From assembly GCA_018340375.1 (NCBI GenBank), contig JAFFJZ010000070.1, positions 124,001-188,000 on the forward strand: a stretch of DNA of 64,000 bases, read 5' to 3'. A program made the position numbers and the translations under genes. Shown piece by piece: positions 5,307-62,463 of this stretch. Source of the stretch: Gonatopus flavifemur. Taxonomy: Eukaryota > Arthropoda > Insecta > Hymenoptera > Dryinidae. Every line of letters begins with the position of its first letter. The stretch's first letter is position 1. The notes under the pieces were generated by a model. The model saw only the letters and a list, made by a program, of their open reading frames with translations, made no database searches and was not told the origin of the DNA.

Positions 5307-5308
5307 TA

Positions 5309-6410: not shown

Positions 6411-6754
6411 TAATTAACGCTTGCAAGCCCTCATGATTTTGATCTCTAAGGATTTTGTGGAAGTTTACATGTTGTTTCAATATAAAAATAATAAATATTG
6501 TCCAGGGGACATGAGTGTTAGGATGGAACATTGCGTTTTTGAGTTGTGCGTACGAATGAAATCATCGATTTCGATATTTCATTGACGATTTTCTCAAATA
6601 CTTCAAAAAACTCTGCCTGGGAGGTTTTTGCAATGTGTTCTTAGATGATTCCTACTTGAAAATCACTTTTATTTATGCTGCGCAGACCTGCGCAACGAGT
6701 GATATGTTAATTTTTATGACACAGTATCTGTAAAATTATTAGTTATCCGGTATA

Positions 6755-7017
6755 CACTGTTGAAAAAGTTTGTGAATTGAATACACAAAATTTGGAAGCA
6801 ATTACCACACATATTTGTGTTTGAAATTCACCACAGATTTTATGAGGATTCAAATCAAATTCTGTATGAAAAGCACTTGAAAACAATATTGTGTTTGAAT
6901 TTTAATAGAAGTATGGGAAATTCAATGAACAAAATATGTTTTGTCTATAGCTTACAACCTTTTGTATCAAAATTAATATAAATATTCTTAAATTTGCGGT
7001 GGAAATTTTCAACAGTG
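6755..7017. mobile_element. MITE with CACTGTTGAAAA termini, 263 bp
   Basis: CACTGTTGAAAA at the left and TTTTCAACAGTG at the right are exact inverse ends. The flanking trinucleotide ATA is repeated on both sides. Non-coding. Confidence 0.7.
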
Positions 7018-7047
7018 ATATGCAACATGCAACATTACAATAAATCA

Positions 7048-7283
7048 CATGCAGAAAAATGATGTATCAAATATTACTACATTTACTCGTACATTAGTGC
7101 CCGTAAGTGAAGTAGTATAATGTTTACAACTGAATGTAGTAAAATCTCATGCTTTAGGATATGAAGTTGCACCAAATTGCACGATGTTTTGCTACATTCA
7201 GTTGTAAACATTATACTATTTCATTCACGGGCACTAATGTACGAGTGAATGCAGTAAGGTTTGATACATCATTTTTCTCCGTG
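7048..7283. mobile_element. Palindromic MITE, about 236 bp
   Basis: The arms share AGAAAAATGATGTATC and, further in, the GTGCCCGT/ACGGGCAC and TACAACTGAATGTAG blocks, so nearly the whole element folds on itself. Exact ends are uncertain by a few bases. It lies just upstream of the Transib coding region. Confidence 0.7.
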
Positions 7284-7382
7284 CAAGTAAGGTTCAAGTA
7301 GAGCGTGCGGAAATTTCTAGAGTATTGGATGAATTTTATTTGATCTCTGACTACTGTCCTTTGATAGTTTGGCAACGTCATA

Positions 7383-10300
7383 ATGTCATTCACTTCAACA
7401 CGGAAAGAGTTGTTTGATATCTTACGGAACGTGGAGAGTGCCTCACGTGATGCAAAAATTCATCACCTAAAAAGTTACGTCATCAATAACTTACACATAA
7501 AAAAAGATGAGGATATAAAACACATCGGACGACAGGTTACATTGTTTGGTTTAAGTATATTTGATAAGTACGATAAGGCTTCCCGAAAATTTAAGATTTT
7601 TCTCGACAGGAATGAAAAATGGCTCAACGGAATAGTCAAATTTTCAATCATTAAAATGTCCAATAAAACAAACAAGAAGGGTGGTCGTCCTACTTCATCG
7701 TTCGAAAATTCGACCATCAACGCAGAAAAGCGAGTGAACTATGTAAAACTAAGTCAACTGCAGAATTGTCTTTGGCCCTACGAATGAAGTTACGTTCTAA
7801 AGGCCGTCATACGACAGCTGAAATATTGCAAGAAGCTTGTTCAGTATCCGGTAATATAACACACATGGTCAAGGAGAATGTTAAAAACATAACTTCTTAC
7901 ACTGACGATGAAGCCTTAGCTCTGATTGTACAGAATAAATCAACGAAGAATGAGTATCTGAATATGCGACATGGTGCGATAGAAAGAGGTGTGGATTTGT
8001 ATCCTTCTCATCACAAGATATTGGATGCTAAGACTAGATGTTATCCTGGGAATGAATATATAACAGTCACTGATAGTATCGCAGGACTAAAATTACAAGC
8101 TCTCCTCGATCATACTGTAACTCGTATAGTGAAGGTTAGTGAATCTGTTACTGGTATGCTGTCAATTGAGCAATTAGATAAACTGACGCCGTTGTCAAAA
8201 TGGGGATTTGATGGGAGTTCAGGTCATTCTCAATACAAACAGAAACCTAATAGCTCCGAAAGCATGTTCAGTGATAGTAATCTATTTGTAATCAACGGAT
8301 AGAAGAAGTCCAATATCGCGGGCAATGGCGAATAACTTTTATTTCAAAAAGTATAATCCGACGTTTCGACCGAGTTTCGGCCATTTTCAAGGACAATACA
8401 AAATCATAATGGCGAAAGATTTGTCTGTTCCATCGTCGTTAAAAAACCTCGTTGACAAGAGGACAGAGGTAGAATTAGAATATTCACTCGTAGGTTGAGG
8501 AAAGTGGAGTTGGCAGATGCCCGTATCGTTCCTTATTAACGGATAGAAGAAGTCCAATATCGCGGGCAATGGCGAATAACTTTTATTCAAAAAAGTATAA
8601 TCCGACGTTTCGACCGAGTTTCGGCCATTTTCAAGGATAATACAAAATCATAATGGCGAAGGATTTGTCTGTTCCATCGTCGTTAAAAAACCTCGTTGAC
8701 AAGAGGACAGAGGTAGAATTAGAATATTCACTCGTAGGTTGAGGAAAGTGGAGTTGGCAGATGCCCGTATTAAATAATTACGGAAGATTGAAAATTTGAA
8801 AATCACTGTACCCACGAGTGACATCTACCGAACAATCAAGTTACCAGACTTGTTTGAATCCTACAATTCGGCAGAGGATAATCCATAGAATAGATCAAGT
8901 GTAGTCGCTTCGGTCGATAATTCAAATCATAATACGATTGATGCCTTGCTAGAAGCGAAGAAACATATTTACATCGATCAATGAAAATAATCGATGCGTG
9001 TGTTCGCAATCCTTCGCCATTATGATTTTCGCGTAGGTTGAGGAAAGTGGAGTTGGCAGATGCCCGTATCAAATAATTACGGAAGATTGAAAATTTGAAA
9101 ATCACTGTACCCACGAGTGACATCTACCGAACAATCAAGTTACCAGGCTTGTTTGAATCCTACAATTCGGCAGAGGATAATCCATAGAATAGATCAAGTG
9201 TAGTCGCTTCGGTCGATAATTCAAATCATAATACGATTGATGCCTTGCTAGAAGCGAAGAAACATATTTACATCGATCAATGAAAATAATCGATGCGTGT
9301 GTTCGCAATCCTTCGCCATTATGATTTTGTATTATCCTTGAAAATGGCCGAAACTCGGTCGAAACGTCGGATTATACTTTTTTAAATAAAAGTTATTCGC
9401 CATTGCCCGCGATATTGGACTTCTTCTATCCGTTAATAAGGAACGATACGGGCATCTGCCAACTCCACTTTCCTCAACCTACGAGTGAATATTCTAATCT
9501 ATTTGTAACTTCTTCTGTTCCTTTGGAACTGAATGTCTTGCAATCTGACTTGACGAAAAAAATAATTGGGAAAAATCCACGTCCATCGTCAACGAGATTC
9601 TGTCGCCCAATAAGGATACAATTGATAATGGAAACAACTGAAGTGAGTAAAGAAGAGAAACAATACATGAAGAATCAGGTCAATAATCTCGTGCCTCCCA
9701 AAGTATCATGTCCTGTGGGTGATGTGAATGTTACTCATAAAATGGCACTGACTATGATAGACGGAAAAGTTTGCAACGCGATCACATCAACCGCATCTGC
9801 GCAAACTTGTAACATTTGTGGTGCTACGCCAAAAAAAATGAATAATATTGAAGTAGTCTCTACAAGAACAGTCGATCAATGCAATCTTCAATTCGGATTA
9901 TCTTCTCTCCATGCTTGGATAAGGTTTTTTGAATTGCTCTTGCATATTACTTATCGTTTACCCATTCAGAAGTGGCAGATTCGAAGTGTTGCAGACAAGG
10001 ATTTATCCTCCCAAAGAAAAAAAATTATACAAAATAGATTCAGGAGTGAAATGGAATTGCTCATTGATATGTCTATACCTGGAGGAAGCGGAACTACCAA
10101 TGATGGCAATACTGCTCGGCAATTTTTTGAACACGCGTCCACATCATCTGAAATCACAGGGATGGATTTGGATGTTATTGAAAGATTCCGCGTAATATTG
10201 CAAACAATCTCTAGTGGTTTTGCTATCAATGTTGAGGCCTTTGCTAAGTATACACATGATACGGCTGAACTGTATGTTCATAAGTATAATTGGTATCCTA

Positions 10301-10641
10301 TGTCAGCATCAGTCCATAAGGTGATTGCCCATGGGTCTGATATCATAGAACATGCTGACTTACCAATTGGTGAATTAACTGAGGACGCCCAAGAGGCTCG
10401 GAACAAAGATTGCAAATATCATGAAGAACATAATACAAGAAAATCTTCAAGACTTTTAACCAATCTAGACCTTTTACGCATGCTACTGATATCATCAGAT
10501 CCGTGGATTCCCTCTTTACGGAGATTGCCCCAAAATGAGAATAAATCTTTTTCGCCAGAAGTCCTTACACTTCTACAAGATCCGCAGATACAGTTGGCCA
10601 AGGAATATTCGAACATTGAATATGAAGAAAAATTGGTGTGA
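7383..10641 (+). pseudogene. Transib-superfamily transposase (RAG1 relative), frameshifted and interrupted
   Basis: Three coding blocks, 7383-7787, 7766-8291 and 9495-10641, together give one Transib-type transposase. The first carries the N-terminal region with KNLHIKKDEDIKHIG-like spacing. The second holds KWGFDGSSGHSQYKQ (first catalytic Asp). The third holds TMIDGKVCNA (second Asp), a CNICGATPKKMN zinc-binding stretch, DGNTARQFF, and IGELTEDAQEARNKD, whose Glu aligns with the RAG1 catalytic Glu region. So D, D and E are all visible. A frameshift lies near 7766-7787, and a 1.2-kb hammerhead-repeat element with a 14-bp duplication sits between blocks two and three. The apparent Met at 9403 belongs to that insertion and is not a start. 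Family role: RAG-like cut-and-paste transposition, normally with 5-bp target duplications. Inactive as it stands. The superfamily call rests on remembered motif patterns, not a search. Confidence 0.8.
8292..9494. mobile_element. Retrozyme/Penelope-like hammerhead repeat element 1
   Basis: This 1203-bp insertion splits the Transib gene and is flanked by a 14-bp duplication, TAATCTATTTGTAA, at 8278-8291 and 9495-9508. It holds two direct copies of a 244-bp unit (starting near 8294 and 8538), two copies of a second block (about 8770-9030 and 9045-9320), and an inverted partial copy of the first unit (about 9321-9494). Each unit has a hammerhead-like core: on the minus strand at 8359-8393 and 8603-8637, on the plus strand at 9336-9370. 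In order the core is TTGAAAATG, a GGCCGA/TCGGTC stem, CGAAAC, GTC. Non-coding. Long duplications, short tandem units and hammerhead motifs match animal retrozymes mobilised by Penelope-like elements. The core departs from consensus CUGANGA, so activity is doubtful. Confidence 0.65.
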
Positions 10642-10714
10642 AATAATACAAGAAATGAAGAATAAAAAACCTTGAAAAAAATGTTAAGAAAGAAAATAAA
10701 GAAAGAATGGATAA

Positions 10715-11975
10715 AGTTTCCGGCCTGACCAAGAGATGGCGCCACTAGGCCTACCTTGAGGTGGCGTTCTATAGTACCATCCTTAGATGGCTTGTAGCTA
10801 TAGTTTCAGTCCGATCGCCATGTTAGTTTAGTTTTGAGAGCACGCTGACCAAGACGCCTCTGTGTTTTTCGTAGAAATGGAAAAGCTGGAAAATTGTGCT
10901 GTCATCAAATACTTTTATTTGAAGAGGTTAACGCCGAAGGAAATTGAAGAAGAGATGGACTCAACACTGGGGACATCCTCCCCATCATATTCAACCGTTA
11001 AGCAGTGGGTTTCCGAGTTTAAAAAGGGTCGTGTGAGCACCTCTGATGAGCCTCGCTCAGGACGCCCCATTGAGGTCACAACTCCAGATATGATCGAAAA
11101 AATCCATCAAATAGTGCTGAAAGATCGCCGATTAAAAGTTCGTGAGATAGCTGAGACCTGTAAGATGTCATATAAACGTGTACAAAATATTTTGCACCAA
11201 CATTTGTATATGGAAAAGCTCTGTGCAAGATGGGTGCCGCGTTTGCTAACAGTCGACCAAAAATTGATTCGAAAGAACATTTCTACCGCCAATTTGGCGT
11301 TGTATAAGCGTAATCCAAGCAAATTTTTGCGACGATTCGTAACCGTTGACGAAACTTGGGTCCACCACTACACTCCTGAAACCAAAGAACAGTCTAAACA
11401 GTGGATTGGACCAGGGGAACCAACTCCAAAGGAGGCAAAAACAATTTTTTCGGCGAACAAGGTTATGGCTACTGTTTTTTGGGATGCAAGAGGTATTATA
11501 TACATTGATTACCTTGCAAAGGGTAAAACTATCACTGGTCAATACTACGCAGACTTATTGCAACGTTTGAGCCACGAAGTAAAAATTAAACGACCTCATC
11601 TGGCGAAGAAAAAAATCTTGTTTCATCACGATAACGCACCAGCGCACACGTCAATCGTTGCGATGGCTAAAATCAACGATCTGAAGTTTGAATTAATGCC
11701 GCACCCTCCCTACTCTCCAGACCTAGCCCCGAGTGACTATTATCTGTTTCCTAACCTCAAAAAATGGCTTGGTAGTAAGAGATTTGCGGACAATGAAGAA
11801 GTAATCGAACCTGTAAATGGGTATTTTGAGGAGCTTGACGAATCAGTCTATAGAGATGGCATTACTAGACTAGAACACCGCTATGAGAAATGTATCAGCC
11901 TTGGAGGAGATTATGTTGAGAAATAAAAAAAAAAAATTCCTAAAAACGTTGTTTTTCTTGGTCAGGCCGGAAACT
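10715..11975 (+). mobile_element. mariner transposon, about 1.26 kb
   Basis: The inverted ends AGTTTCCGGCCTGACCAAG (left) and CTTGGTCAGGCCGGAAACT (right) are perfect over 19 bases, with TA outside (11976-11977; left TA at 10712-10713 plus one extra A). Size, ends and single gene are those of a canonical mariner. It is inserted downstream of the Transib coding region. Confidence 0.92.
10877..11926 (+). CDS. mariner transposase, apparently intact
   Basis: A 349-residue frame from ATG at 10877 (the frame is open upstream, but MEKLEN is the family-like start). The N-terminal paired-type HTH region leads to EPRSGRP and the hinge WVPRLLT (WVPHLLT in most mariners). The catalytic domain has VTVDETW (first Asp), [11 protein letters not shown] (second Asp) and [14 protein letters not shown] (third Asp). 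I count 34 residues between the second and third, the DD34D signature. No stop or frameshift interrupts it, and length matches the family (about 345-350). The enzyme binds the terminal repeats and cuts and pastes the element at TA sites in the nucleus. The near-perfect ends and clean frame suggest a young copy. Confidence 0.95.
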
Positions 11976-12059
11976 TATCAATCCACCCTCGTAATTCAGT
12001 TCAAGATTTTGAAGAAAAATCTGAATCCAGATCCGTATTTGGCGGCTTCCAAAGACTGT

Positions 12060-12300
12060 CCGGAAACGGGTTTCAGGCTAATCGAAATCATTTCAACATT
12101 TATGTCCGTCATATTGAATTCGCCATCTTGAATTCTGAAAATCTGATTGCGAATTCGTAATCAGCGATCCAAAAAACTCTCCCAGGACGAGTTTCAGGCA
12201 AATCGGAGTGATTTTGACATTTCCGTCCGCCATATTGGATCCGTCATCTTGAATTCGGAAAATCTGACTACAGATTCGTAATCAGCGATCCCCAAAACCT
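12060..12300 (+). repeat. Two tandem 121-bp repeats
   Basis: The phrase TTTCAGGC.AATCG recurs at 12071 and 12192, and GTAATCAGCGATCC closes both units. The repeats contain GCCATCTTGAATTC-like words. They may be subterminal repeats of the Transib element, since a CACTGTG terminus follows at 12370. Confidence 0.75.
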
Positions 12301-12369
12301 CTCAGTCCAGAACAATGCATGAATTAGACAACGCCTTATAGTTTTGAGCACTTTTTGTGGATTCCGGCC

Positions 12370-12376
12370 CACTGTG
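12370..12376 (+). other. Possible Transib 3' terminus (CACTGTG heptamer)
   Basis: CACTGTG read inward from the right is CACAGTG followed by GGCCGGAATCC. This is the heptamer expected at a Transib end and identical to the V(D)J heptamer. It lies about 475 bases past the transposase stop once the mariner is discounted. No partner CACAGTG end was found upstream, so the element may be truncated at its 5' side. Confidence 0.4.
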
Positions 12377-13416
12377 CAATTCTTCCATGAGTTGCCACTT
12401 GTACACTTTTCATCAATATATTATACTTTCCTTACTCACGTAATTCACTTCATTTGGGCTATCAAACATGTACTATACATTATTCATATACATCATTCTT
12501 TGTTATCAGAACATTACTTGAAACAAAAAAAGCAAAAGGTAGGATATATCACATTTGATTAGCAAGATTTCATTGCTTCAGACTGATAGGATTGAAAACG
12601 TAATTGAAACGTTTGTAGATATTTCTACTTTCCTAACACATTTTCAAAATTTTTATGAACACTTCAGAACCTTTTACAAACATTCAAAAGTTTCTTGAGA
12701 ATACTGTCTGAATGTTATAAAATCATCCGTGATCTGTATGAAGCCTGGAAGGTGGTTAAATGTTTCCTTCTCTTTACGGACAAATTCAAAATGAACTAGG
12801 AGTGAGTCGATTGTAATGATATGAAGACTAATCATTTCCATTGTTCATCGGAAGGCTCTAAAAGCACTCAACAAAAATTATAACGCGAAATTTTGTTTCA
12901 TGTTGGAGAGTCCAAAACAATCCCCGCAGGGGCATAACACTTGTAAACATAGAAACATAACCAAAAAATGAAGAATCACAAATTTGAAGTTATATGTTTT
13001 CAAAAGATGAACCGTGCTTGTGAGTTGAATAAAAGCATGTCATAAATGTCAAAGACAGGCTTCTTACCAAAAAATTTTCAGTATCCATTCGTTATAATGA
13101 AATGGATGACAGGTGGTCGGCACGAAAAAGCAAGATTCACAGTGATTGATTTCAATTTCAATTATTTCATCCAAATTCCATACAACAATATAATGAATTG
13201 CATACACTACTTATAAGCGTGTGTGAAAGTAACTGCACTGGCTTCAAGGGACTTATTATTTGAAATTCTAAAGCTGTTTGTGTGCCATCTACCCGATGAG
13301 CACTAGAAGCATTTCATACGTACGTATTACACGCATGAATGAACCAATATGGAAACTTTTGGTATGATAAGAGCGTGAGAGTAAACTACTTCCAGTGGTC
13401 TCTGTACAGATGACGC
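12377..13416. other. AT-rich stretch without recognisable genes
   Basis: Only short open frames are present and none has recognisable content. I see no terminal repeats or tandem structure. Confidence 0.4.
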
Positions 13417-13424
13417 GGATGAAC

Positions 13425-13635
13425 CAGTGATGCCAGATTCGAGACCGACACCGTTTTTACTCAACCCATTGACCGCTTCCCCTTTCTCCCACCATGCGGA
13501 ATGAGTCGCGCGAGCGACAGAGAAAGAGTGACTATCACACTCTCACTCGCCTGACTTATTCCGCATGGCGGGAGAAAGGGGAAGCGGTCGATGGACAGGG
13601 TAAACGTGGTCTCGGTCTCGAATCTGGCATCACTG
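13425..13635. mobile_element. hAT-type MITE with perfect 8-bp duplication
   Basis: The ends CAGTGATGCCAGATTCGAGA and its exact inverse bound a 211-bp near-palindrome. GGATGAAC is repeated on both sides (13417-13424 and 13636-13643), an 8-bp target duplication typical of hAT transposition. The element is clearly richer in GC than its surroundings. Non-coding. Confidence 0.92.
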
Positions 13636-13869
13636 GGATGAACGTTTGAAATTTCAAATAACAAGTTCATGCCCTTCTCGTCGCAGTGTTGAATTGCAAA
13701 ATTAGACCTCCATTTTTTTAATACTTTTTTGATAGCACTGGATACACATCCCTGCTTAGACAAGCTTATTGAGACCGATTTGAAAAAAAGTTTAATCGGA
13801 ATAAATCTTACTTTTGTACTGACAATTTTTCATTCAATAGGGTATTTTCGTCCAACATTGTTGAATATA

Positions 13870-14570
13870 TTTGAAAAATTCGTTTCTGTGAGATATGGAC
13901 CACTTGATTCAGAATTTTTCGAAACAACAAATGAGTAGATCCTGAGAGTAGGGGTCTTTCAAACTGCACTTACAAATTTTACCAATTGCTTGGAGCAAAT
14001 CGGCGGAGAATTTTCAAAAATTCGTTTCTGTGTGATATAGAACAATCAATTCAGAATCTTCTAAAATGAAAGATGAGTAGGTCAGAAGAGTAAGATTTTT
14101 TTCAAACTGCACTTCGAAATTTTACCAAGCAAATCGATGAAGAATTTTCAGAAATTCGTTTCCATGGGGCATGAACCAATCAATTCAGAATCTTCTGAAG
14201 CGAAAAATAATTACCCAGGCGGCACATAAGAATCCCAAATGAATTTCAAAGAAAGAACTCGTTAAGAACTCTGCTAGAATACAAAGAATCCTTAAAGAGT
14301 TTTTGAAAGAATTTGATTCATTATACATTTGTGAGTGCCGTCAAAATTCGAACTCTTCGTATACTAAAAGAGTTCTTGAAAAGTTATTTTTTCGGAATTC
14401 ATTGGGGATTCTTGTGTGCTGTCTGGGTAAGTCACGGGAGACCGGTTTTTCTCATCCTCGACTTGAGGATTTCACCAAGTGCTGGGTCAAATGACCAAAA
14501 ATTTTTAAAATCCCATTTCCTTGAGATATAGACCAATCAACTGAGAATTTTTTAAACCTCAATATAAATA
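13870..14570 (+). repeat. Four diverged tandem repeats of about 140 bp
   Basis: Units recur near 13876, 14021, 14153 and 14511 with the phrase AAATTCGTTTC..TG..ATAT..ACCAATCAATTCAGAATCTT. After subtracting the MITE at 14214-14427 the last interval is also about 142 bases. The array predates that MITE. Confidence 0.7.
14214..14427. mobile_element. TA-flanked palindromic MITE, 214 bp
   Basis: The ends CCCAGGCGGCACATAAGAAT and ATTCTTGTGTGCTGTCTGGG are inverse with few mismatches. TA flanks both sides (14212-14213, 14428-14429). It interrupts the 140-bp tandem array. Confidence 0.8.
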
Positions 14571-14571
14571 A

Positions 14572-15229
14572 ATCAATCAATTCATAGTTACATGGTAATT
14601 CATGGGTTTTTCCATCTCTAACTACCAAATTTCTCCAAGTCTTGTTTGAGGATGATGAAAAATTTCAATATCATAAACACATTCACAGTTTCACTGCGCT
14701 CAAGGGCCTTTAATATACTAGCACCATAGATTTTCAGAACATCGCAGAATATCATACTTGCGATGTTTCAATTGAAAGATTTTCACAATATTCATAGTAA
14801 AATATTTTATCCTCAATATCTATGGAATCTCGTAGGAATATTTCACCCTAAATGTTCCAAGCGAGGTATTGTGATATTCTGGAAATATTACTAAGACATT
14901 GTGTACTGTGTAGGATATTTGGAACTGACTGAATTAATCCTATTAAAAATTTAATCACATATATTTCTATATTCATCAGCATTTCCCATTTCACGTTTGG
15001 GACTTACACAATCAATCTTATTCAGACAAAAATCGCATTGATTATTACACTTGAATTTCATTGAATTGATTCTGCTGAAAGTCCAGTCTTATTTATTGCT
15101 ATATACATCGACAATTTTAATTGAGTAATTACCTAACGATCCGATTGAAATCAACTTGGATTCATTCTTATATTAGAAATTGACTGAATTAACCCGATTA
15201 GAAATTCAATTCATATCTACATTTCTATA
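14572..15229. other. AT-rich stretch without recognisable genes
   Basis: There is weak internal similarity (ATTGACTGAATTAA-like words near 14925 and 15178, suggesting an old duplication), but no genes or termini that I can support. Confidence 0.35.
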
Positions 15230-16110
15230 TTCATCATCATGTCACGACATCTTATTGCTTCCTCGTTAGAGAGAAGCTTTGTGATCGTTTCGAGGGACCG
15301 AAAATTTTTTGTCTCCAAATTCAAAATCTCTAAGGCCAAAACGTTTCTCTCGACTCGGGGAACAATTTTGGTTTCGTGTCTGTCTGTCTGTCTGTGTGGC
15401 TGTAGCTCCCCTAAGGTTCGTACGCGCATATCTTCCGTTCTGCTTATCCGATCGTTTCGAATTTTTTATCACAATTTCGGACTAGGGTGATAGTGGTCCC
15501 ATATAAGTTTCAACCTGATTCATCCAGAAGAATTGGGTGGATGAGAAGAACTCTGACAAAAAATGAACATTTTACGTACGCGCATATCTCCGCTTTCCAT
15601 TATCCGATTTTGATGAAACTTGAACCACACTCTAGTCATAACCTGAGAGTGATCCCATATAAGTTTCATCCCAATCGGTTGAAAATTGTAGAAAATTTTT
15701 TTTTGCGATCCGCGTTTTTTAGCCATATTTTGGAAGCTTGCCTTCTCTATGTCCCTATTATCCGAATGCCATGGAATTTTGAACATGTTCAATTCACGAG
15801 GTGTTAGTTATATTTTATAAATTTCAAGCAAATCGGACGTGAAGGACGAAAACGGCAAGCACTAAGCTCCGAAACAAAATTTGAAAACTTCGTAAATGCC
15901 GCTATCATGCGGATATTTTCCGTTCCTATCATCCAATCGTTATGAAATTTTCAGCACAGTTCTATGCAGTGCCGATAGTGGCCCCATATAAGTTTCAATC
16001 CAATCGGTTGAAAACTGTGGAAAATATTTTTCTTGTTACCTGCATTATTTCATCCTTTTTCATGTACGAGGAAGCCATGTGCCAATTGGCAGAGTTTTCA
16101 CTCTGATATT
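15230..16110 (+). repeat. Dispersed repeat shared with the 29.4-42.1 kb foldback core
   Basis: The order of phrases here (CTCCAAATTCAAAATCTCTAAGGCCAAAA, ACTCGGGGA, then several CGCGCATATCTTCCGTTC..TATCCGAT units, then GAGGAAGCCATGTGCCAAT) is the same as at 30930-31900. At least three diverged internal units carry ATAGTGG(T/C)CCCATATAAGTTTCA and AATCGGTTGAAAA. No intact coding frame. Confidence 0.75.
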
Positions 16111-16847
16111 AGGAAATCTTTGATATTCAAGGAGCAGAACATTCGTATCGGAGATAAATCTTTCCCATAATTTTGTTTTCCATCATTGAACCTGAGAATC
16201 AATCAATTCAATTAATTAATTTGAATTAATTTCTGAATAATCATTACAACCTGGGGTTGTAATGATTCCTGTATTTCATCAGTCAATGTGAGAGTGTTTT
16301 TTCTTCATGTTTTTCTTTCAAAATATTCGATTTGAAACTTTTCACAACTGTTTCATTCGTATATTGGTGCGTTTATTGGAAAAAAATTTCTCCCATTTGG
16401 CAAGGGGGGGGGGCAGCTGCCCTCCCTTGCCCCCCCCCTCTGGATACGCCCATTTCATGACGTAATGAAAGAGTTCCGTTAGGGGATAATTAATTAGGTT
16501 ACCTATTCAACCTGAATGAATGTTTAATGGGATGTCAATGGGAAGTTTCCCACATCTATTCCTATGAGACGGAGTGGGAAAATTGTAGAATACGAACATC
16601 GAATAAGATCAGATTGGAAATTTTCGGTACGAAAATCTGATTTGATCCAATTGATGAATTGAATGGGTTTGAATGGGATCTTTTCTGTGAGGAACGGAGA
16701 TGGGCAACCTCTTTTTGCCACTGATCAAACATCCATATAGAACAAACAGAAAACCCAATGAATTGTTCCCGACAGAGACTTGTTCATCACTTATATTCTA
16801 GGAACTAACCATCTTTACCTGCAAAATTTGATATCAGCAATTTTCTA

Positions 16848-17950
16848 CACTGTAAAAAAATTTCACCGGAAAATTCCAGTACATGTACTGGAAGTCATTA
16901 ACCTGTACATGTACCGGAAAATTTCAGCACATTTGTACTGCAAAAATTCAGTGCAAACGTTATGGAATTCCCGCATCAAAACTGGAAATTTTCTGAGCCT
17001 CGGTACTGGAATTTTTCAGTACACGAGCTGGACTTTTCCAGGACATGTACTGGAAAATTAATGCTGAAAATATCCATGAAAATTGAAAAAAAATTGCTCA
17101 CGCAAAGTGATTTTGCAGGGTCCTTGTGTTCCAAGATGATTGAGAAACTTTTGATCGTTCATTTGGATGGACAGAAACTCATGTCTACCTAACAGGATTT
17201 GAACCCACACTTTTCTACCTGCCTACCAACTGAAACCTAAGACCTAACCGATGAGCTATAGCGCGACATGTTGGAAGGCCAGCTTGGGTTACTACATATG
17301 CTTCATATCTAGAACACAAGAGGATAAGTCTTGGAAAAACCTCATATATCAATTTCATTGGCTACAATTACAATTATTATTCAAAATCTCAATCAGGAAA
17401 TTTTTAATATAAAGACTTGAAATTTTTCCTGCCAGAAATGACGAAGTCCAATAGAAGTGGAAAATTTCAGTGCAACAGTGATTAAATTCCGTTGCATAGC
17501 AACTGGAAAATTCCATCACACGACCTGAAAATTGCAGTTCAAAACCTGTATAATTCAATTGCATAGTAACTGGAAAATTCCATCACAAAACCTGAGAATT
17601 GCAGTTGAAAACCTGTATAATTCCAGTATACCAACGATTAGGTTTTTTTTTCTAAATTCCAAATTTTTTCTCAAGTCCTTTTTGAGGGAATATTTTTTTT
17701 TGGTGCACAAGAACTATAAAATTGTAGTACGAGCCGGTAAAATTTTCGCGAAATCATGGCAAAATTTCAGTACATCATCTCAAACTTGAAAATTCCAGTA
17801 CAATGACTGAATTTTCAGTTATGCTTGGTAAATTTTCAGTAACGTAACAACAAAATCTCTGTACATGTACTGGAATATCCATATTCCAGTACTAGCACTG
17901 GAAATTTCCAGTCCAGTTGCACAGTAAATTTCCAGTTTTTTTTTACAGTG
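16848..17950 (-). mobile_element. 1.1-kb TA-flanked element with tRNA-like module (copy 2, inverted)
   Basis: This is the reverse complement of the element at 5309-6410: same ends (CACTGTAAAAA / TTTTTACAGTG), 1103 versus 1102 bases, TA on both sides (16846-16847, 17951-17952). The pair form a near-identical inverted repeat 10.4 kb apart. It lies just outside the right terminus of the proposed hAT. Confidence 0.9.
17196..17259 (-). promoter_or_regulatory. tRNA-like A and B box pair (copy 2)
   Basis: Inverted counterpart of the module at 6000-6063. The B box complement reads GGATTTGAACC and the A box complement CCGATGAGCTA on the plus strand. Confidence 0.5.
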
Positions 17951-17954
17951 TATT

Positions 17955-20723: not shown

Positions 20724-21703
20724 ATACGGGGCAAAATTTCTCAAGCGTACCAGCTCAAAAATTGTTGTTAAATGTAGTACTAGTTAGTGACTTTTATTCC
20801 TATGAAGGATTTTGCTCTGGTACCTTTGGTTATCAAACTACAGGGGTCCAAAATTCACAGATTTCGTTTAATCATCTCTTTTGAAGATATAATTTCTTAA
20901 ATTACATTTTTTTATGAAATTATTTTCGATATTGTTTTTCGTAGCTTCTTTTTCTGTTCTTTACAATGGCGTGACCCGTTTTTTGTGAGAAAAAATTTTT
21001 TCCAACAAATTTAGTGAGTTTGAAGTTATTTTTGCATTTTTTTTCAATTCCGACAATTTTGAAAATCTTTTAAGTTAGCTCATCTGAAAGCTGGATACTT
21101 TAGCTTCGGAACCGTGTAGGAGAAATTATGGGAAGAAAATTTTATCTGGCATTCGCAACGGTTTGAAGCGTGCGTGTCGCATATTCCTATTATCCCCTGA
21201 TACGGTTCGTCATACTGTTGACGCGGAATACAAGTGAAACGAACTGTTTTTCAATAAAATATGATTTTTTAATCATGCCAATGATTTCATACAATGTAAC
21301 CGTACCATTATATTATCAAACTTTGTCAATAACAGCTTTTGAAATTATGAGACATAATCATGAATAAATACACATAATATAATAAATATGGGATAACTCT
21401 GCTTGAAGCAGTATATTTAGCGCAATTTCTTATTCGTATTAATTTTTTTTTAATTCTCATCTTCGGGAAAACATCTACATTCAATGATGACGAAAATACT
21501 CCCTGTGCGAAAAAACCAATGGAAACCGATAGGCGAAATCCTAATGGAATCAATGATATCCTATCGGTTTCTATGCGGTTATTGTCACAGGACCCAAGGG
21601 TTTCTATGAGATTCTAAGTGGAATCTGATGTTCCATGGGTTTCTATCAGCATGATCGGCAAAACCTGATTAATTCTGATAGGAATAAAATGGCCTATCGG
21701 TTT

Positions 21704-23034
21704 CTATGCAGTTATTGTCACAGTACCTATGGTAATCCATGGGAATCTATGGGACTTTTCGGACAGGGCTCGTAAATGCAAAGTCATGTTCGAAGTTGGG
21801 ATGAAACAATGATATTTGAGCGTTCCTGGGATTGTTTTCACAGTTTCGAAGCGAGTTTTGAGTGTTTTAGCAGTGATTTCATGATTTGTCTTCGAACTAA
21901 AAAAAACAACAGAATCTGATAGATTCCTGTTTGCCCATTCGTAAAACGCATCAGGATTTGAAATTTGCCGCTTAGACCTCGCTTGAAGACTCGCTTGAGC
22001 CGCTAGTCGTTTCAGATTACCGCCGACACCGTCACAAGGCCCTTTTCCATGAGCGGTTGCATGAAAATACCATTCAGCTGTTATTCCAAAATCTTGGTAA
22101 TGATACAAGAGATTTTTGAGATTATATCTATTCTTGAAGTGTTAAGATGCTCCATCCGTAAAATAGAAAATTGTTTTGGTTGAAAATCCTCTTTCAGGTA
22201 CGCCATTATAATTTTTTGGAATTCGTACACAGCGATTGTATCGTGATTCAAATTATCCGATAAAATAGCAATGCTCCGAAGACTGAGTTCGTTTCCTTGT
22301 TTGTAATAAATGACAGTGCTGAAAATGGTCGTTTGCTCGTTGTTCCAGTGGAAACCCTGTGCAGCATTCTGGGCTACAAACGCATAATTTTCCACGAAAT
22401 CGCATAAAACTAAAAATCCTCCTTCTTGTAAATTATCCTTCAAATTTTTCAGAAAAGATGACTGCTGTTTCACAACGAATGAATGGAATTTGAGTTTCGG
22501 AAGGTAACGAGAAAATTTCTCTAAAATATCTTCTGCATCTGCAACTTCAGTACACAAAATGCTACGATCAGTCTGTTGCCAAATTTGATATTCGAGTTTT
22601 TCGATGCAATTGTCTTCGAAAACGATTTGTAAAAAATTCTGTAAACCCTCTTTGCCAAGACATAATGAACATTCATCGGGATAACATTCGGCACATGGAT
22701 TCTGACATAAAAACATTTTGAGAGCATCATGATAAGTGGCGATTAAATTCTTCGTATCGGGTGTTAATTTTTGAATATCTATCGCATCAAGCATTACATT
22801 GACATTCCCGTGATGGACACGAACGCAAACAGTATGCGTTCCACTAGCACCAGCGAGTACGCAATTACGAGGTCTAAGGTGCGAGAATGTAGAGAGACTG
22901 ACCGGAATAGTAGGATTCTGATCTTTGGAAGCAAAATATAATTCTGAAAGATTGCACAGAATCAATCTCTTTTGTACGTGCTCTCGTGATCCATCTTCTT
23001 TTTTAACTGAAACAAAATCTTCTATGCCCGGCAT
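21704..23034 (-). pseudogene. Transposase-like protein, catalytic half (unnamed metazoan family), decayed
   Basis: The main block, 23034-22081, begins in MPGIEDFVSVKKEDGSREHVQKRL. It continues through LRPRNCVLAGASGTH, a Cys-rich CAECYPDECSLC stretch, VLCDFVENYAFV and SDNLNHDTIAVY. A frameshift near 22170 and an in-frame TAA separate it from the C-terminal block at 22108-21704, which carries FGITAEWYFHATAHGKGPCDGVGGNLKRLAAQ. The conserved Asp positions (CDF.ENY, a TDGAS readable just past the frameshift, CDGVGG) look like a D-D-D/E core. I recall many uncharacterised proteins in aphids, Hydra and other animals with this motif order, so it is a repeated family and not a host enzyme. Position between long terminal inverted repeats supports a transposase role. 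Inactive here. Confidence 0.7.
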
Positions 23035-23125
23035 TATACGACTATTTTCGTCATCATTATAGAAACTTATGATTTTGGTTTTATTTCAAAAGCTAAAGCA
23101 TGACCCTTTTTTGGAGATGATGACG

Positions 23126-23754
23126 TTAAAATACCATTTTTTTTACCAGTTCGATAGTTTTCCTAGCTTGACGTTCAGAAGTCTCGAACTCGTCAGCAAG
23201 TATCTTCCAACCCCAGGATTTTGGCGCAAGCATGAGGAGTAATACTTTTTCCGAAGCACTCGAGGAAGTTTTATATTTCTGCTTAATGTGATCAAGAACC
23301 ACCATAGCAGATTCATGTTCCTCAATATTACAATCTCTTGGTTTCTTCTCTAATGGCTGGTAATCATCGTCATTACCATGTTCATGAATACCATCATCAT
23401 CGTCATCCTGAATTATGTGAAACATATCGTAGTAATTGATTGTCATTCCCATAAATGTATTGTTCATTTTCATTGATGTACAAATTGTCTTTTTAGCAAT
23501 TGGAAATATGATATCAATACCTCGAGTGAAACATGACCAAACAAATCATCTCGTGCATCAATTAGAGGCTTTTCTCCAGAACAAGCAGCAGCTTCTTTTC
23601 TACATGACCCACACACTTTTGCATCGGGGAGGATACTGAGAAACTTTTTTCGTAGATCTGGAGAAATAGTTCTCAAATCTCTTGATTTGAATTTGTGATG
23701 GATTTTGTGCAAAGGGGTACAACAACGATTAACGAAACTTTGAGTTGCAGACAT
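23126..23754 (-). pseudogene. N-terminal region of the same transposase-like protein
   Basis: Two frames precede the catalytic half. The first (23754-23470) holds a zinc-binding-like module: RCCTPLHKIHHK, LRTISPDLRKKF, VCGSCRKEA. The second (23473-23126) has an acidic linker (IIQDDDDDGIHEHGNDDD) followed by a helical SASEKVLLLMLAPKSWGWKIL..ERQARKTIELVKK segment that fits an HTH-like DNA-binding part. The second ends at a run of eight A/T bases at 23132-23141, where a one-base slip would connect to KNGIL... and on towards MPGIED. Read together the pieces give a protein of roughly 650-700 residues. An intron between the first two frames is possible. Confidence 0.6.
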
Positions 23755-24900
23755 TTTTGAGAATCAAGAAATGTTGTATCAATAATACTGTATTTCATCT
23801 ATTAATTGAATTGCCTACAAACAAACACAATCAAACAGTTGGAAAAGAAAAAATTGATTTTCATCACGAATTGCGAATCATATTTAGAATTGAAACAATT
23901 TTACTTACAATTCAAGATGGTGTCATGCGATGCGATTTTTCGTGTGACATCAAGTTGTATGAAGTATGCGTATAAACAAGGAAAAACGAATGAACATCGT
24001 CGATATGTTTGATGTATCGAAGATGTGTACAGAATTTCAATTGTTCATCGAATTGAGAAAAATCGATCACAAATTCAAATGAATAGATTTGAGAACTATT
24101 TTTCCGAGTCTACAACAAAAGTTTTCCAACATTCTTCCCGATGCAAAAGTGTGTGGGTTATGCAGGAAAGAAGCCAGCGTATTTTCCAGAGAGCAGGATT
24201 ATCCCATATTTATTATAATATGTATATTCATTCATTATTATGTTCCATAATTTCAAAAGCTATTATTGATAAAGTTTGATAATATAATGGTACGGTAAAA
24301 TTGTATGAAATCATTGGCATGATTAAAAAATCATATTTTATTGAAAAACAGTTCGTTTCACTTGTATTCCGCGTCAACGGTATGACGAACCGTATCAGGA
24401 GATAATAGGAATATGCGACACGCGCGCTTCAAACCGTTGCGAATGCCAGATAAAATCTTCCTCCCATAATTTTTCCTACACGATTCCGAAGCTGAAGTAT
24501 CCAGCTTTCAGATGAGCTAACTTGAAAAATTTTCAAAATTGTCGGAATTGAAAAAAAATGCAAAAATAACTTTAAACTCGCTGAATTTGTTGGAAAAAAT
24601 TTTTTCTCACAAAAACAGATTACGCCATTGTAAAGAACAGAAAAAGAAGCTACGAAAAACAATATCGAAAATAATTTCATAAAAAAATGTAATTTAAGGA
24701 ATTATATCTTCAGAAGAGCTGATTAAACGAAATCTGTGAATTTTTGACCCCTGTAGTTTGATAACCAGAGGTACCAGAGCAAAATCCTTTATAGGAATAA
24801 AAGTCACTAACTAGTACTACATTTCAGTGAAATTTTAGAAAGATTGAGGAAGTAAAAATTTTTGAACTGGTACGCTTGAGAAATTTTGCCCCATACTTAA

Positions 24901-35248: not shown

Positions 35249-35299
35249 ATTGGTGACCCCGAGAAAAAATAAATAACGGAGATAACCTCGACAAACAAA

Positions 35300-36148
35300 A
35301 TGTCGACAGATGGAGAAGATGAATATTACGATGCAAGTGCTTTACCGAATGATATACAAAATGAACAGGATAATGTGAACAGAGACGCTACTCAGATCTT
35401 GGCAGTGGAAAGTTTAAAATTACCACCGTTCTGGAAAACCGATCCGGATCTGTGGTTCATTCAGGTTGAGTCTACGTTTCATACACGACGCATCAGAGTC
35501 GATGAAACGAAGTATCATACGGTGGTGACAGCGTTGGATTCGGAAATACTTAAGCAGGTTTCAGACATTATCAGGAATCCGCCAGCTCAAAATAAGTACC
35601 AAACGCTCAAAGATGGTTTGATTAGTAGATTAACCGATTCGCAAGAGCAGCAATTAAGTAAGCTTCTTACAGGGATAGAACTGGGAGATAAGAAGCCTTC
35701 ACAATTACTCCGAGAAATGAAAGTATTGGCTGTGGATAAAGCTTCAGAGGAGATATTACGGTCTTTGTGGATGAAACATATGCCAACGCCTGTACGATGT
35801 ATTTTGTCAGCTAGTCCTAATGTTACACTGGTCGAGCTAGCGAACATAGCTGACAGAATTATGGAAAATAACTCGACTCTAATGTTAATGGCAACGGAGA
35901 CTGGAACTGAAATTGCAGCAAACCACATGAAACAAAACACATTCAATGATCGTATGAGTCGATTGGGAAAAGCGGTGGAGGATCTAACAATAGCGTTGAC
36001 CAAAGGAGCGACTAATCAATTGCGTAGTCGCAGTCGCAGCAGATCTTCAACTTCTGGAGTGTGTTTTTATCATAGACGATTTGGTAACAAAGCGACTCGT
36101 TGCACGCAGCCATGCAACTACAAATCCTCATCAATACCAGAAAACTAA
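35300..36148 (+). CDS. gag: Ty3/gypsy Gag protein
   Basis: A 282-residue frame from ATG 51 bases past the 5' LTR. LPPFWKTDPDLWFIQVE (about residue 38) and YHTVVTALDSEI are hallmarks of the arthropod mag-like Gag capsid region. After an Arg/Ser-rich RSRSRSRSS linker the C terminus has CFYHRRFGNKATRCTQPC, a C-x2-H-x9-C-x3-C zinc-binding variant in place of the classical CCHC knuckle. Gag forms the virus-like particle that packages element RNA in the cytoplasm. The frame is uninterrupted, unlike pol. The mariner insertion begins 72 bases after the stop. Confidence 0.9.
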   Translation: MSTDGEDEYYDASALPNDIQNEQDNVNRDATQILAVESLKLPPFWKTDPDLWFIQVESTFHTRRIRVDETKYHTVVTALDSEILKQVSDIIRNPPAQNKYQTLKDGLISRLTDSQEQQLSKLLTGIELGDKKPSQLLREMKVLAVDKASEEILRSLWMKHMPTPVRCILSASPNVTLVELANIADRIMENNSTLMLMATETGTEIAANHMKQNTFNDRMSRLGKAVEDLTIALTKGATNQLRSRSRSRSSTSGVCFYHRRFGNKATRCTQPCNYKSSSIPEN

Positions 36149-36219
36149 CAAGGCTGTCGGTCGAGCAGGGAGACAACGACAGCAATAACATCGTCCTGCG
36201 CGAATTTCGTCTGCATATA

Positions 36220-38250
36220 CAGGGTGGGGCATTTGAAGTGTCGCGGGCGTTTTTTCCAAAAATAAAGTGAGATACGAGAAAATTTTTCGGACAAAAGTTG
36301 TAGGGTACCGAGGGGGACATCCGATGGTGGCCTTGGCTTTGACCTCAAATCTCATCTTCAAGGGCATTCTGAGATCAACTCTTGTTTTTTAAATAGCATC
36401 TCATATTTTTTACTGCAGATTTGGATTCTAGGTCAAAAACCAAGAAACTTTTGTCTGAACCATTTTCCTGAAATCCGCAAAAATGGCGCTCTAATCGATA
36501 TTGTTCCATTTTGAATCTGACATTCGAATAACTCGAAAACGAAGGGTCTTGCAAAAGAATGTTTCGTACAAAAGTTGTCAATACACAACACATTTGAATC
36601 GTCTACATTACCACCATTCAGAGCTCACGCGATGTAAACAAACGACGGGGTTCAGTGAAAATTCACGATTTTGAAAGTCAGTTTGTCAGTTACATTTGAT
36701 TATTACTTGGTTTATGACATATTGAAAATCATGGATATCCGATACACGGTTTCTGAAAAGATCGATATGATCTACATTTACGGTGAAGTGCATAAGAACC
36801 CCAGACAAGCATATGACTTGTATGCAGAACGATTTCCTGAAAGAACAACGCCATCCATTAGGTATTTTCAACGCATTACAAAATTATTCTCAGAAACGGG
36901 AAGTGTTACAAGGGAAAAACGACATCGAATGAGAACTGTTAGCGGAGAAAATGCGGAAGTTAATGTACTAGCTGCAGTAGCCAATAATCCACACGTGAGC
37001 TCTCGTGAAATTGAACTCCATTCGGGAATTTCTCGAAGAAGTGTTCTTCGAATACTGAAACGTCACAAATTCCATCCGTATCACATTTGTTTGCATCAAG
37101 ACCTTCACGGTGATGATTTCGAAAATCGTGTACAGTTTTGTCGATGAGGTCTAGCGCAAATGCACAATAACAACTTCATCAACATATTATTTTCTGATGA
37201 GTCGACGTTCACCAATCATGGTCAAGTAAATCGACATAATATGCATTAATGGGCGACAGAAAATTCAAGATGGTTACGTCAAGTAGAGCATCAAAGACAA
37301 TGGGCTGTGAATGTTTGGTGTGGTATTTTTCGATCTCGAGTAATTCGACCGTACTTCATTGCAGATACGCTAAATGGAGAAAAGTACAGACATTTCTTAG
37401 ATCAAGTACTTCTAACATTACTTGAAGACATACCTATTCAGAAACGATTGAATATGTGGTATCAACACGATGGTTGTCCATCCCATTATGCAGTCACAGC
37501 TCGAGAAATATTGGACAGAGATTATCCTGGACGATGGATAGGACGTCGTGGACCAGTTCATTGGCCTGCCCGTTCTCCGGATCTTACTTCTCCAGATTTT
37601 TTTTTATGGGGATACATAAAAGATACAGTTTATCAACAAGCACCGACTACACCTGAGAATATGCGTCAACGAATCATCAATGCATGCGCGAGCATCAATG
37701 AAGATATTTTAGCACGAGTTCAGCAATCTTTTGTAAAACGTTTTGAAATGTGTATTGAAGTCGAAGGCCATCATTTTGAGCATCTACTGCATTAAAATTA
37801 TCCAAGTGATGTAGACGATTGAAATGTGTTGTGTTTTGTCTGTTATACCTCATCACCTCCGTTTCAGTTCAAGGGGTCCCCCTTGGAATCAGACAACTTT
37901 TGTCCGAAACATTCTCCTCCAAGACCCTTCGTTTTCGAGTTATTCTAATGTCAGATTCAGTATGGAACAATATCGATTAGAGCGCCATCTTTGCGGATTT
38001 CAGGAAAATGGTTCAGACAAATTTTCTTGGTTTTTGACCTAGAATCCAAATCTGCAGTAAAAAATATGAGATGCTATTCAAACAACAAGAGTTGACCTCA
38101 GAATGCCCTTGAAGATGAGATTTGAGGTCAAAGCCAAGGCCACCATCGGATGTCCCCCTCGATACCCTACAATTTTTGTCCGAAAAATTTTCTCGTATCT
38201 CATTTCATTTTTGGAAAAAACGCCCGCGACACTTTAAATGCCCCACCCTG
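36220..38250 (+). mobile_element. mariner-like (DD41D) transposon inside the Ty3/gypsy
   Basis: Ends CAGGGTGGGGCATTTGAAGT and its inverse (ACTTTAAATGCCCCACCCTG, one mismatch) with TA on both sides (36218-36219, 38251-38252). Long subterminal inverted repeats continue for about 400 bases (AGGGGGACATCCGATGGTGG, CGAATAACTCGAAAACGAAG). At 2031 bp it is longer than a classic mariner. Confidence 0.93.
36731..37795 (+). pseudogene. DD41D mariner/Tc-type transposase with two in-frame stops
   Basis: The frame starts at MDIRYTVSEKIDMIYIYGEVHKNPRQAYDLYAERFPERTTPS, a DUF4817-like HTH region. It continues with a second HTH (NNPHVSSREIELHSGISRRSVLRILKRH). It is in one frame to 37795 but stopped by TGA at 37145-37147 and TAA at 37247-37249. 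The catalytic residues are visible: LFSDEST (first Asp), YQHDGCPSHY (second Asp) and LTSPDFFLWGYIK (third Asp). I count 41 residues between the second and third, so DD41D. About 355 codons. The family cuts and pastes at TA. Inactive here. Confidence 0.85.
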
Positions 38251-38252
38251 TA

Positions 38253-41200
38253 TATGATAAAACTAGCAACGTCAAGTACTTGATTGATTCTGGTTCTGTG
38301 GTGTCGGTGTTGCCATGGACGTTCGCGTCAGTCAACAAATGTGACAATAGAGTTATGAAATTATACGCTGCAAACGGTAGTATTATCGACACATTTGGAA
38401 ATAGAATTTTGGAAGTGGACCTTGGTTTGCGTCGAGCCTTCAAGTGGCCATTTTTGATTGCGGATGTGAAATGTGCTATCATTGGAGCAGATTTTCTGGC
38501 CCATTTTGGTCTAATAATCGATTTAAAACGACGATGTCTGGTCGATTCCTGTACATCAATGACTTCAAAAGGAAATATATCGATGGTACAAATATGCCGC
38601 ATATCTACGCTCGATCAGCAAAATAATGACGATCATCTGCTCCAGGAATTTATCGATATAACCAAGCCTACTCATACCTTGCGGTCAATGGTGGATTGCG
38701 CGACAGCTCATTTTATTCATACGACTGGTCCACCGGTAGCAGAACGACCAAGAAGGCTAAATGGTGAAAAACTTGAAGCTGCGCGCACAGAGGTTGAATT
38801 TTTGTTGGAGCAGGGAATTCTTCGACCGTCCAATAGTCCTTGGGCTAGTCCCATACACCTAGTATAAAAGAAAGCAGGAGGATGGAGAACTTGTGGAGAT
38901 TTTCGCAGGTTGAATGCAGTAACGATTCCGGACCGTTATCCAACGCCTCTAATTCAGGACCTCTTTCAGCGATTACATGACAAGAAGATTTTTTCTACAC
39001 TGGATTCAGTACGAGCATATTATCAAATACCAATGGCGCCAGAGGATATCTCGGAAACGGCAATTATCACACCTTTCGGGTTGTACGAATTTACAGTCAT
39101 GCCGTTTGGATTGCGTCATGCGGCACAGCCCTTCCAGAGACATGTTGATAATATTTTTCGTGGTTTGGATTTCGTTTACGTATACATCGATGATGTCATC
39201 ATTATGTCAGAGACGCGTGAACAACATGAGGAGCATTTGCGCATGGTTTTTGAGTGTTTGCGTAAGCATAAACTTAACATTATTGTCAGAAAATGTTATT
39301 TCAGGCAGATATCTATTCAGTATCTCGGTTATACAATCGATGAGCATGGTTAAAGGCCACCCGAAAATAAAGTTGAGGCCATTCGGCGGTACCCAAAACC
39401 GGATACTATTCAGGAGCTCCGACGATTTCTGGGGATGCTCAATTACTACCGTGGCTGTATTCCAAAGTGCGCACATATACAGGCACCGCTCAATGGGTTC
39501 CTAAAAAAATCTAAAAAGAATGATAAAACCAAGGTGCCGTGGACTGCTAGCGCTGAAAAGGTTTTCGAGGATTGCAAACAAGCTCTTGTGTCTGCTACGG
39601 TAATGGCATTTCCGGCATTGAAGGCAAAACTGAGTCTCACAACAGATGCGTCGGACACAGCAATTGGGACATCGCTAGAACAAATGATGAATGGAGTAAA
39701 AAGACCAATCGGATTTTTCTCAAGGAAATTATTACCCGCCGAACAACGTTACAGTACTTATGATAGGGAATTACTTGCAATTTTTGCTGCAATAAAATTT
39801 TTCAAACATCGTTTAGAGGATTGTCAGTTCATAATATATACAGATCATCGACCATTAATGCTTTCAACCAGAGAGCTGAAAAAACTTCACATCGACAAGC
39901 TCGACAATTGGCGTACATCTCACAGTTCAATGCAGCGATAGTGCACGTGAAGGGAGAAAATAAAGTTGTGGCCGATGCGTTGTCAAGGATTAACGAGATT
40001 ACCATGCCAACTGTTTTGAGTCCGCAGGTTATACAGGAAGCTCATAGTGTCGACGAAGAACTTCAAAAGTTCATGAGCGAAGAAAAAACTTCATTAAAAC
40101 TACAACAACTTGAAGTCGACACTCAATCGGGCGCAACAATATACTGCGATACCTCTGCAGGTGTGGTTCGTCCATACATTCCTAGGTGTTTACGAAGGAT
40201 AGCTTTTGATACGGTGCATGGTTTGTCACATCCTTCGGCTCGAAGCACGTCAAGATGTTTACGGGAGGAATTCGTTTGGCCTGGAATTGAAAAGGACGTA
40301 CTGCGATGGGTGAAGGAGTGTCTTCACTGTCAACAGGCAAAGGTTCACCGACACAATCATATCATACCAGACCACATAGAGGTACCGGAGAATAGATTCA
40401 ATCATATACATGTGGACTTAATCGAGTTGCCATTGGTTAAAGGATTGCGATATTGTCTTACGATCATCGATCGTTTTTCAAGATGGCCAGAAGCCATTCC
40501 TTCATCAAATATAACAGCGGATACAGGAGCATCAGCACTCTATGACAATTGGATTTGCCGATATGGAACCCCATTAACAATAACTTCTGACCAGGGTTCA
40601 CAGTTTGAGTCTGCACTTTTTAAAGCATTGGCAAGACTAGTGGGCTCTGATCGATCTAGGACTACACCTTACCATCCAGCATCAAATGGCCTAGTGGAAA
40701 GAATGCACAGAACTCTCAAAGCAGCTCTTATGTGCGCCCTGCATATTCCATGGCCGGAATTGTTACCTACGGCATTGTTAGGTTTAAGGACGAGTTTCAA
40801 GGAGGATCTAAAAGCAACAGCGGCCGATTTGTTATATGGCACATCTCTTCGAATTCCGGGGGAATTTTTTGTCAATCAGGAAATGCCGCCGGACCCGGAG
40901 TTTTCCGTTGAAAAATTTAGAGAACATATAAGAGGGCTACGGCCTGCCCCTACTGCACATCATAGTAAACAGCGCATGTTCGTCTTGATGGATCTATCTA
41001 CTTGTTCGCATGTATGGGCGCGAGTTGATGGAGTAAAAAAGACATTAGAACCTCCATATCAAGGACCTTACGAGGTGATAAAAAGAATTAGTGATCGCGT
41101 TTTCATCATAAATGTGGGGGGTTACCCCAAAGCCATATCAGTGGAACGTTTAAAACCAGCTTACACTGCTAAAATTGATGACAGTGAAACAGATTCCACG

Positions 41201-41305
41201 GGGATGTCAAAGTCAACGGCACCGCATCAATGGGGTGCATCATTGGACAAGCCGCGGAAAACATACGCGAGATCTAAAAAATCGGTTTCGTTCCTTTCTC
41301 ACTGA
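38253..41305 (+). pseudogene. pol: Ty3/gypsy Pol (protease, RT, RNase H, integrase), broken
   Basis: After the mariner the frame resumes with the protease (LIDSGSVVSVLP, near 38275). Reverse transcriptase follows (CGDFRRLNAVTIPDRYP, FGLRHAAQPFQR, VYIDDVI near 39180). Then come RNase H (LTTDASDTAIG, YDRELLAI, YTDHRP) and integrase: zinc region with H-x3-H and CLHC, core VDLIELP, TSDQGSQFES, NGLVERMHRT. Stops at 38865-38867 and 39351-39353 lie in the same frame. A frameshift between about 39850 and 39940 moves into the integrase frame, which is open to 41305. Order PR-RT-RH-IN is that of Ty3/gypsy. With these lesions plus the mariner, no functional Pol can be made from this copy. Confidence 0.92.
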
Positions 41306-62447: not shown

Positions 62448-62463
62448 GTGAAGTACTCTATGT

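Follow-up and report, generated by a model that had tools for sequence, protein, structure and literature searches.

Background

Sola transposons encode a DDD (Asp-Asp-Asp) transposase, leave 4-bp target-site duplications, have terminal inverted repeats of 11-1124 bp and in most cases measure 2-9 kb (PMC10741241). They have been split into distinct subgroups (PMC4455052). In dictyostelids, the Sola2 elements described have ends of 12-21 bp and duplicate AT-rich AWWT sites, ATAT and AAAT among them (PMC3627910), and the wasp Cotesia congregata is reported to carry Sola2 elements in abundance (PMC7822920). Kolobok elements are DDD/E transposons with 4-bp duplications as well, and both Kolobok and piggyBac duplicate TTAA (PMC9587614). 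In the current analysis we have examined a stretch of 64,000 nucleotides from Gonatopus flavifemur (referred to as the window), in which an earlier note had proposed a transposon with long inverted ends, a 4-bp duplication and a transposase of an unnamed metazoan family. We consider it likely that the window holds a decayed copy of a cut-and-paste transposon that is autonomous in its intact form and has a DDD transposase, belonging most probably to Sola and nearest to Sola2 by its target.

Ends of the element, genomic copies and target sites

The transposon spans positions 20728-24892 of the window (4165 bp), exactly as the earlier note had placed it, and is bordered on both sides by the ATAC duplication which that note reported. 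Its inverted ends measure 676 bp on the left and 701 bp on the right and are identical at 638 of 675 aligned positions (94.5%) in a local alignment that begins at base 1 of each. The long inverted ends described earlier are therefore real, and their length, given as about 650 bp, is corrected to nearer 680-700 bp. The tips GGGGCAAAATTTC are exact at both ends of the element. With up to three mismatches allowed, the 24-base tip GGGGCAAAATTTCTCAAGCGTACC was found in the window only as two exact occurrences, one per end and in opposite orientation as had been claimed, and it was absent from 100 shuffles of the window. No Rfam family matched in the window at the gathering threshold.

The genome assembly that contains the window, in which other copies were sought, comprises 636 Mb in 402 contigs. 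A search with the core protein, in which 120 of 2,549 candidates were scored, gave at least 121 matches including the window's own, which represent at least 120 places because two rows belong to one place. The matches are 60-87% identical to the window copy, and in 15 of the 121 rows the open frame reaches 500 codons or more with no stop within the match; a sixteenth of this kind was omitted as a piece of a place that has stops in its other piece. The tip pattern, with at most one mismatch, occurs 299 times in the assembly, the backward control giving 0.

Apart from the window copy, the 20 copies with the highest scores were taken with their flanks as stretches of 9.8 kb, which can include parts of neighbouring copies. 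End sequence, complete or partial, is present on at least one side of all 20 (both sides in 14, one side in 6), which agrees with the expectation in the earlier note that other copies would carry the long ends. Both tips, with at most five mismatches, are retained in ten of them. The length of these ten two-tip copies ranges from 3589 to 5362 bp, and their arms, of about 634-727 bp, have an arm-to-arm identity of 82-95%; four measure 3916-3924 bp, the window copy being about 240 bp longer than these.

Target sites have been compared in 22 paired ends, made up of the window, the ten two-tip copies, ten short-flank pairs and one pair from the tip-pattern loci. They form a selected set and no random sample, the short-flank pairs coming from the 100 places listed of the 299, among which two further opposed pairs were left out. 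An exact 4-bp duplication is found in 11 of the 22, window included, while shuffling of the right flanks (20,000 shuffles) gives a mean of 2.8 exact matches and a maximum of 9; the duplications anticipated in other copies are thus borne out. At least three of the four bases match in 18 paired ends (shuffled mean 12.2, with 18 reached in 0.13% of shuffles), a count that is less telling because the flanks resemble one another, and only two of four match in the other four. Exact duplications of 3 bp or of 5 to 8 bp occur in none of the 22, and a 2-bp match occurs in eight, as expected from repeated AT. The outward flank consensus is ATAT (A 37, T 34, A 37 and T 32 of 44 flanks), with other targets such as ACGT, AGAT and CTAT among the 44 flanks, and TTAA is seen in one paired end.

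The transposase family

Structure models of homologues show an RNase H-like core with conserved Asp residues at DDD/E-type positions. Foldseek comparison of these models with PDB and BFVD gave no match at E of 0.001 or below and the best match of a sequence search against PDB had an E-value of only 0.044; the clear fold alignment came from a second look at the homologue models. The conservation of the three presumed catalytic Asp residues (Table 1) has been counted over 218 aligned homologues, the denominators being those with a residue at the position. On the strength of the predicted fold, the gene very probably encodes a DDD transposase. This supports the D-D-D/E core suggested in the earlier note, whose proposed check, an RNase H-like core with the Asp residues at a DDE-type site, came out in its favour on the homologue models. 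The motifs on which the note had based the family (HGKGPCDGVGG, CDFVENY, SDNLNHDT and VLAGASGTH) are all present in the minus-strand gene.

Full-length relatives begin with a conserved Cys/His module, CCNPF...H...C..CRK, of which the window has the version CCTP...CGSCRK. This module is followed by a helical part and then by a further module, which contains another Cys/His cluster; these parts and the C-terminal one take their names from sequence patterns and from helix predictions. The zinc-binding-like N-terminal module and the helical part foreseen earlier correspond to this predicted arrangement. Many relatives, among the half of the rows listed of a 46-row alignment, have a C-terminal extra stretch with the pattern WW.ACVL...HP.GP, which is missing in the closest relatives listed (P0206, P0002 and P0003).

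A host or captured gene that lies in a repeat and owes its mobility to another element would be in keeping with the broken state of the window copy. Such a reading is contradicted by the end sequence in 20 of the 20 best-scoring copies, even as the 9.8-kb stretches may include neighbouring copies, and by the homologue models, in which the core is RNase H-like and carries the three conserved Asp residues. We have rejected it as scarcely credible.

A single-sequence protein search gave 110 rows, of which the 12 that name an organism are all from animals, namely Cyphomyrmex, Cotesia (with clusters from Cotesia glomerata and C. typhae), Hydra, Araneus, Brassicogethes and Ephydatia. A profile search that scored the 7,997 candidates with most shared words gave 965 proteins, with Myxine in one row among the 120 matches listed. 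The animal groups named are ant, wasps, beetle, spider, hydra, sponge and, from the profile search, hagfish. No Pfam family lies above its curated cut-off in four window pieces, and among 32 homologues searched at E-values up to 1 no Pfam family is found in more than two (25 of 35 families listed) and no NCBIfam family in more than one. The description of the family as common and uncharacterised in many animals is thus apt, its named members being animal and its matches in these libraries weak and scattered. Relatives were confirmed in none of 131 pattern matches in viral contigs and none of 45 in prokaryotic contigs, an absence that is weak because each scan used two peptide patterns. Literature searches for the motif HGKG found it in none of the papers listed, and those by Sola/DDE/CDG and by new-superfamily wording returned no paper.

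Ginger and Chapaev/CACTA-like elements can also leave 4-bp duplications, and Ginger has an integrase-type (rve) transposase domain. With Kolobok and piggyBac, whose 4-bp duplications are TTAA, these superfamilies share the duplication length with the element. Membership in any of the four is nevertheless very unlikely. The consensus ATAT, with TTAA in one of the 22 paired ends, has led us to reject Kolobok and piggyBac. No rve, piggyBac or THAP domain is found among the Pfam matches listed for the four window pieces and the 32 homologues (25 of 35 families listed); the third presumed catalytic residue is Asp and the tips read GGGGC. As regards Ginger, however, the predicted fold does align with integrases.

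The gene in the window copy

The transposase gene on the minus strand is in pieces, with frameshifts near 23130 and 22170 and a single in-frame stop directly after the FTDGAS motif. Read from stop to stop, its open frames are an exon-1-like frame (23754-23470), a helical frame (23545-23126), a core frame (23085-22081) and a C-terminal piece reaching to 21704. In a tblastn alignment, the homologue P0206 is matched over residues 9-73, 104-172, 176-192 (in a third frame), 184-497 and 490-634. The window copy is unable to make the full protein as it stands.

All six aligned copies retain the first Cys pair of the exon-1-like piece, and five of the six retain its ATG (copy L035 has ATA); a later Cys is altered in copy L034. 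The change of frame between the first two pieces is probably due to a GT-AG intron, a reading preferred because GT is found in five of six aligned copies and AG in all five that reach that far.

The interval separating the gene from the right end contains an inverted partial copy of exon-1 sequence. On the opposite side, towards the left end, there is a 57-nucleotide repeat in two copies that are 82% alike (21560-21749). The latter region may be a later insertion in the window copy, since this copy is longer than the four copies of about 3.9 kb.

Table 1. Features of the transposon in the window
Feature	Positions	Strand	Remark
Target-site duplication, left, ATAC	20724-20727		
Left terminal inverted repeat, 676 bp, tip GGGGCAAAATTTCTCAAGCGTACC	20728-21403	+	Same end in many genomic copies
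RNase H-like domain (predicted), second half, and C-terminal part	21704-22170	-	Frame differs from core
Third presumed catalytic Asp, HGKGPCDGVGG	22031-22033	-	Asp in 150/154 homologues
Core: conserved beta module, Cys/His cluster GTH.VC...C...C..C, RNase H-like domain (predicted) first half	22081-23085	-	
Second presumed catalytic Asp, FTDGAS	22154-22156	-	Asp in 163/166 homologues
First presumed catalytic Asp, CDFVENY	22399-22401	-	Asp in 186/189 homologues
Helical, possibly DNA-binding part, frameshift at its end	23126-23407	-	Helices in homologue models
Probable GT-AG intron	23408-23520	-	Frame change and other copies
Exon-1-like piece: ATG and Cys/His module CCTP...H...C..C, zinc-binding-like N-terminal part	23521-23754	-	
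Inverted partial copy of exon-1 sequence	24059-24174	+	84% to 23591-23706 over 116 nucleotides
Right terminal inverted repeat, 701 bp	24192-24892	-	94.5% identity with left repeat
Target-site duplication, right, ATAC	24893-24896		

Proposed mechanism of transposition

The ends, the duplications, the many copies, the predicted fold and the conserved triad are directly supported, and they are consistent with a cut-and-paste cycle for whose end binding, excision chemistry and use of metal we infer the following steps. The zinc-binding-like N-terminal module and the helical part of the transposase would bind the long ends, and nicking and joining of DNA would fall to the RNase H-like domain, which would use its Asp-Asp-Asp triad and metal ions. 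Insertion of the excised element would take place with a stagger of four bases at AT-rich targets that are short and palindromic, with the consensus ATAT, and gap repair at the staggered target would give the 4-bp duplication.

Neighbouring elements in the window

The window also contains a larger inverted-repeat structure of about 12.6 kb (5307-17952), with arms of 1106 bp that are 99.6% identical and tips TACACTGTAAAA. It encloses two open reading frames (ORFs), 7667-8302 and 9325-10641, with no Pfam match at E 0.01, which may resemble transposases of RAG1/Transib or CACTA type. The 438-codon ORF of this structure has at least 101 genome matches (96 of 2,384 candidates scored), and some of these belong to one and the same place. 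Nested within the structure is a mariner-type transposase frame at 10838-11926 on the plus strand, 362 codons from stop to stop (Pfam Transposase_1, E-value: 1.4e-25).

A hAT-type transposase ORF with DUF4371 and Dimer_Tnp_hAT is found at 1021-2595 on the minus strand. Retroelement-like polyprotein pieces, their class judged by eye, occupy 35273-41305 on the plus strand, and amid them two ORFs at 36659-37795 appear mariner-like by eye, the Pfam family DDE_3 matching weakly and under its cut-off (E-value: 0.0091). At 57375-62465 on the minus strand, two long open frames (1342 and 353 codons) are by eye similar to BEL/Pao-type retrotransposons and are flanked by direct repeats about 6015 bp apart.

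Comparison with known transposons

Compared by published features, Sola shares with the present element a DDD transposase, here indicated by the predicted RNase H-like fold and the conserved Asp triad, and 4-bp duplications, here ATAC in the window and exact in half of the paired ends. The element and its copies, at 4165 bp and 3589-5362 bp, and the ends of 676 and 701 bp lie within the size ranges reported for Sola. The consensus ATAT is of the AT-rich AWWT type of Sola2, as defined from the dictyostelid elements. Sola2 is described from Cotesia congregata, and the family of the element is present in C. glomerata and C. typhae. Because the triad, the AT-rich 4-bp duplication and the lengths of ends and element fit Sola and the target resembles that of Sola2, the transposase family is probably not a new superfamily. 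The earlier note left the choice between Sola and a separate superfamily undecided; novelty is not supported by the structural features that could be checked, which fit those published for Sola.

Weighing against this assignment, the ends of the dictyostelid Sola2 elements described are only 12-21 bp long, as compared with about 700 bp here. Along with the sparse Pfam and NCBIfam results and the poor best match in PDB, this long-ended structure speaks for a separate, unnamed DDD superfamily which would use the same cut-and-paste chemistry at 4-bp ATAT targets and would not share descent with Sola. In its fuller version, it would consist of animal DDD transposons with ends of about 700 bp, a zinc-binding N terminus, a C-terminal addition in many members and palindromic ATAT targets. 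We regard the separate superfamily as unlikely, and this version of it as equally so, as the features checked lie inside the range published for Sola and Sola itself has distinct subgroups. The sequences of these subgroups were reportedly found by Bao et al. in 2009 to be hardly alike.

As a result of the analysis, a large set of proteins that are unnamed or labelled 'uncharacterized', 965 in one profile search, can be recognised as transposases of one family, with ends, a target and a predicted active site. This is of use in genome annotation, where genes of the family can be miscounted as host genes. If the family belongs to Sola, as we favour, the value lies mainly in the clean anatomy and the structural model; if it does not, it would be a new superfamily.

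The catalytic domains of retroviral integrase and of mariner/Mos1 have the same RNase H-like fold as that predicted here over about 120-170 aligned residues. They share 7-13% identity with it in the alignments listed, the third acidic residue of the present transposase is Asp, and the other domains differ. Kolobok likewise combines a DDD/E transposase with 4-bp duplications, but its target is TTAA whereas the consensus of the present element is ATAT.
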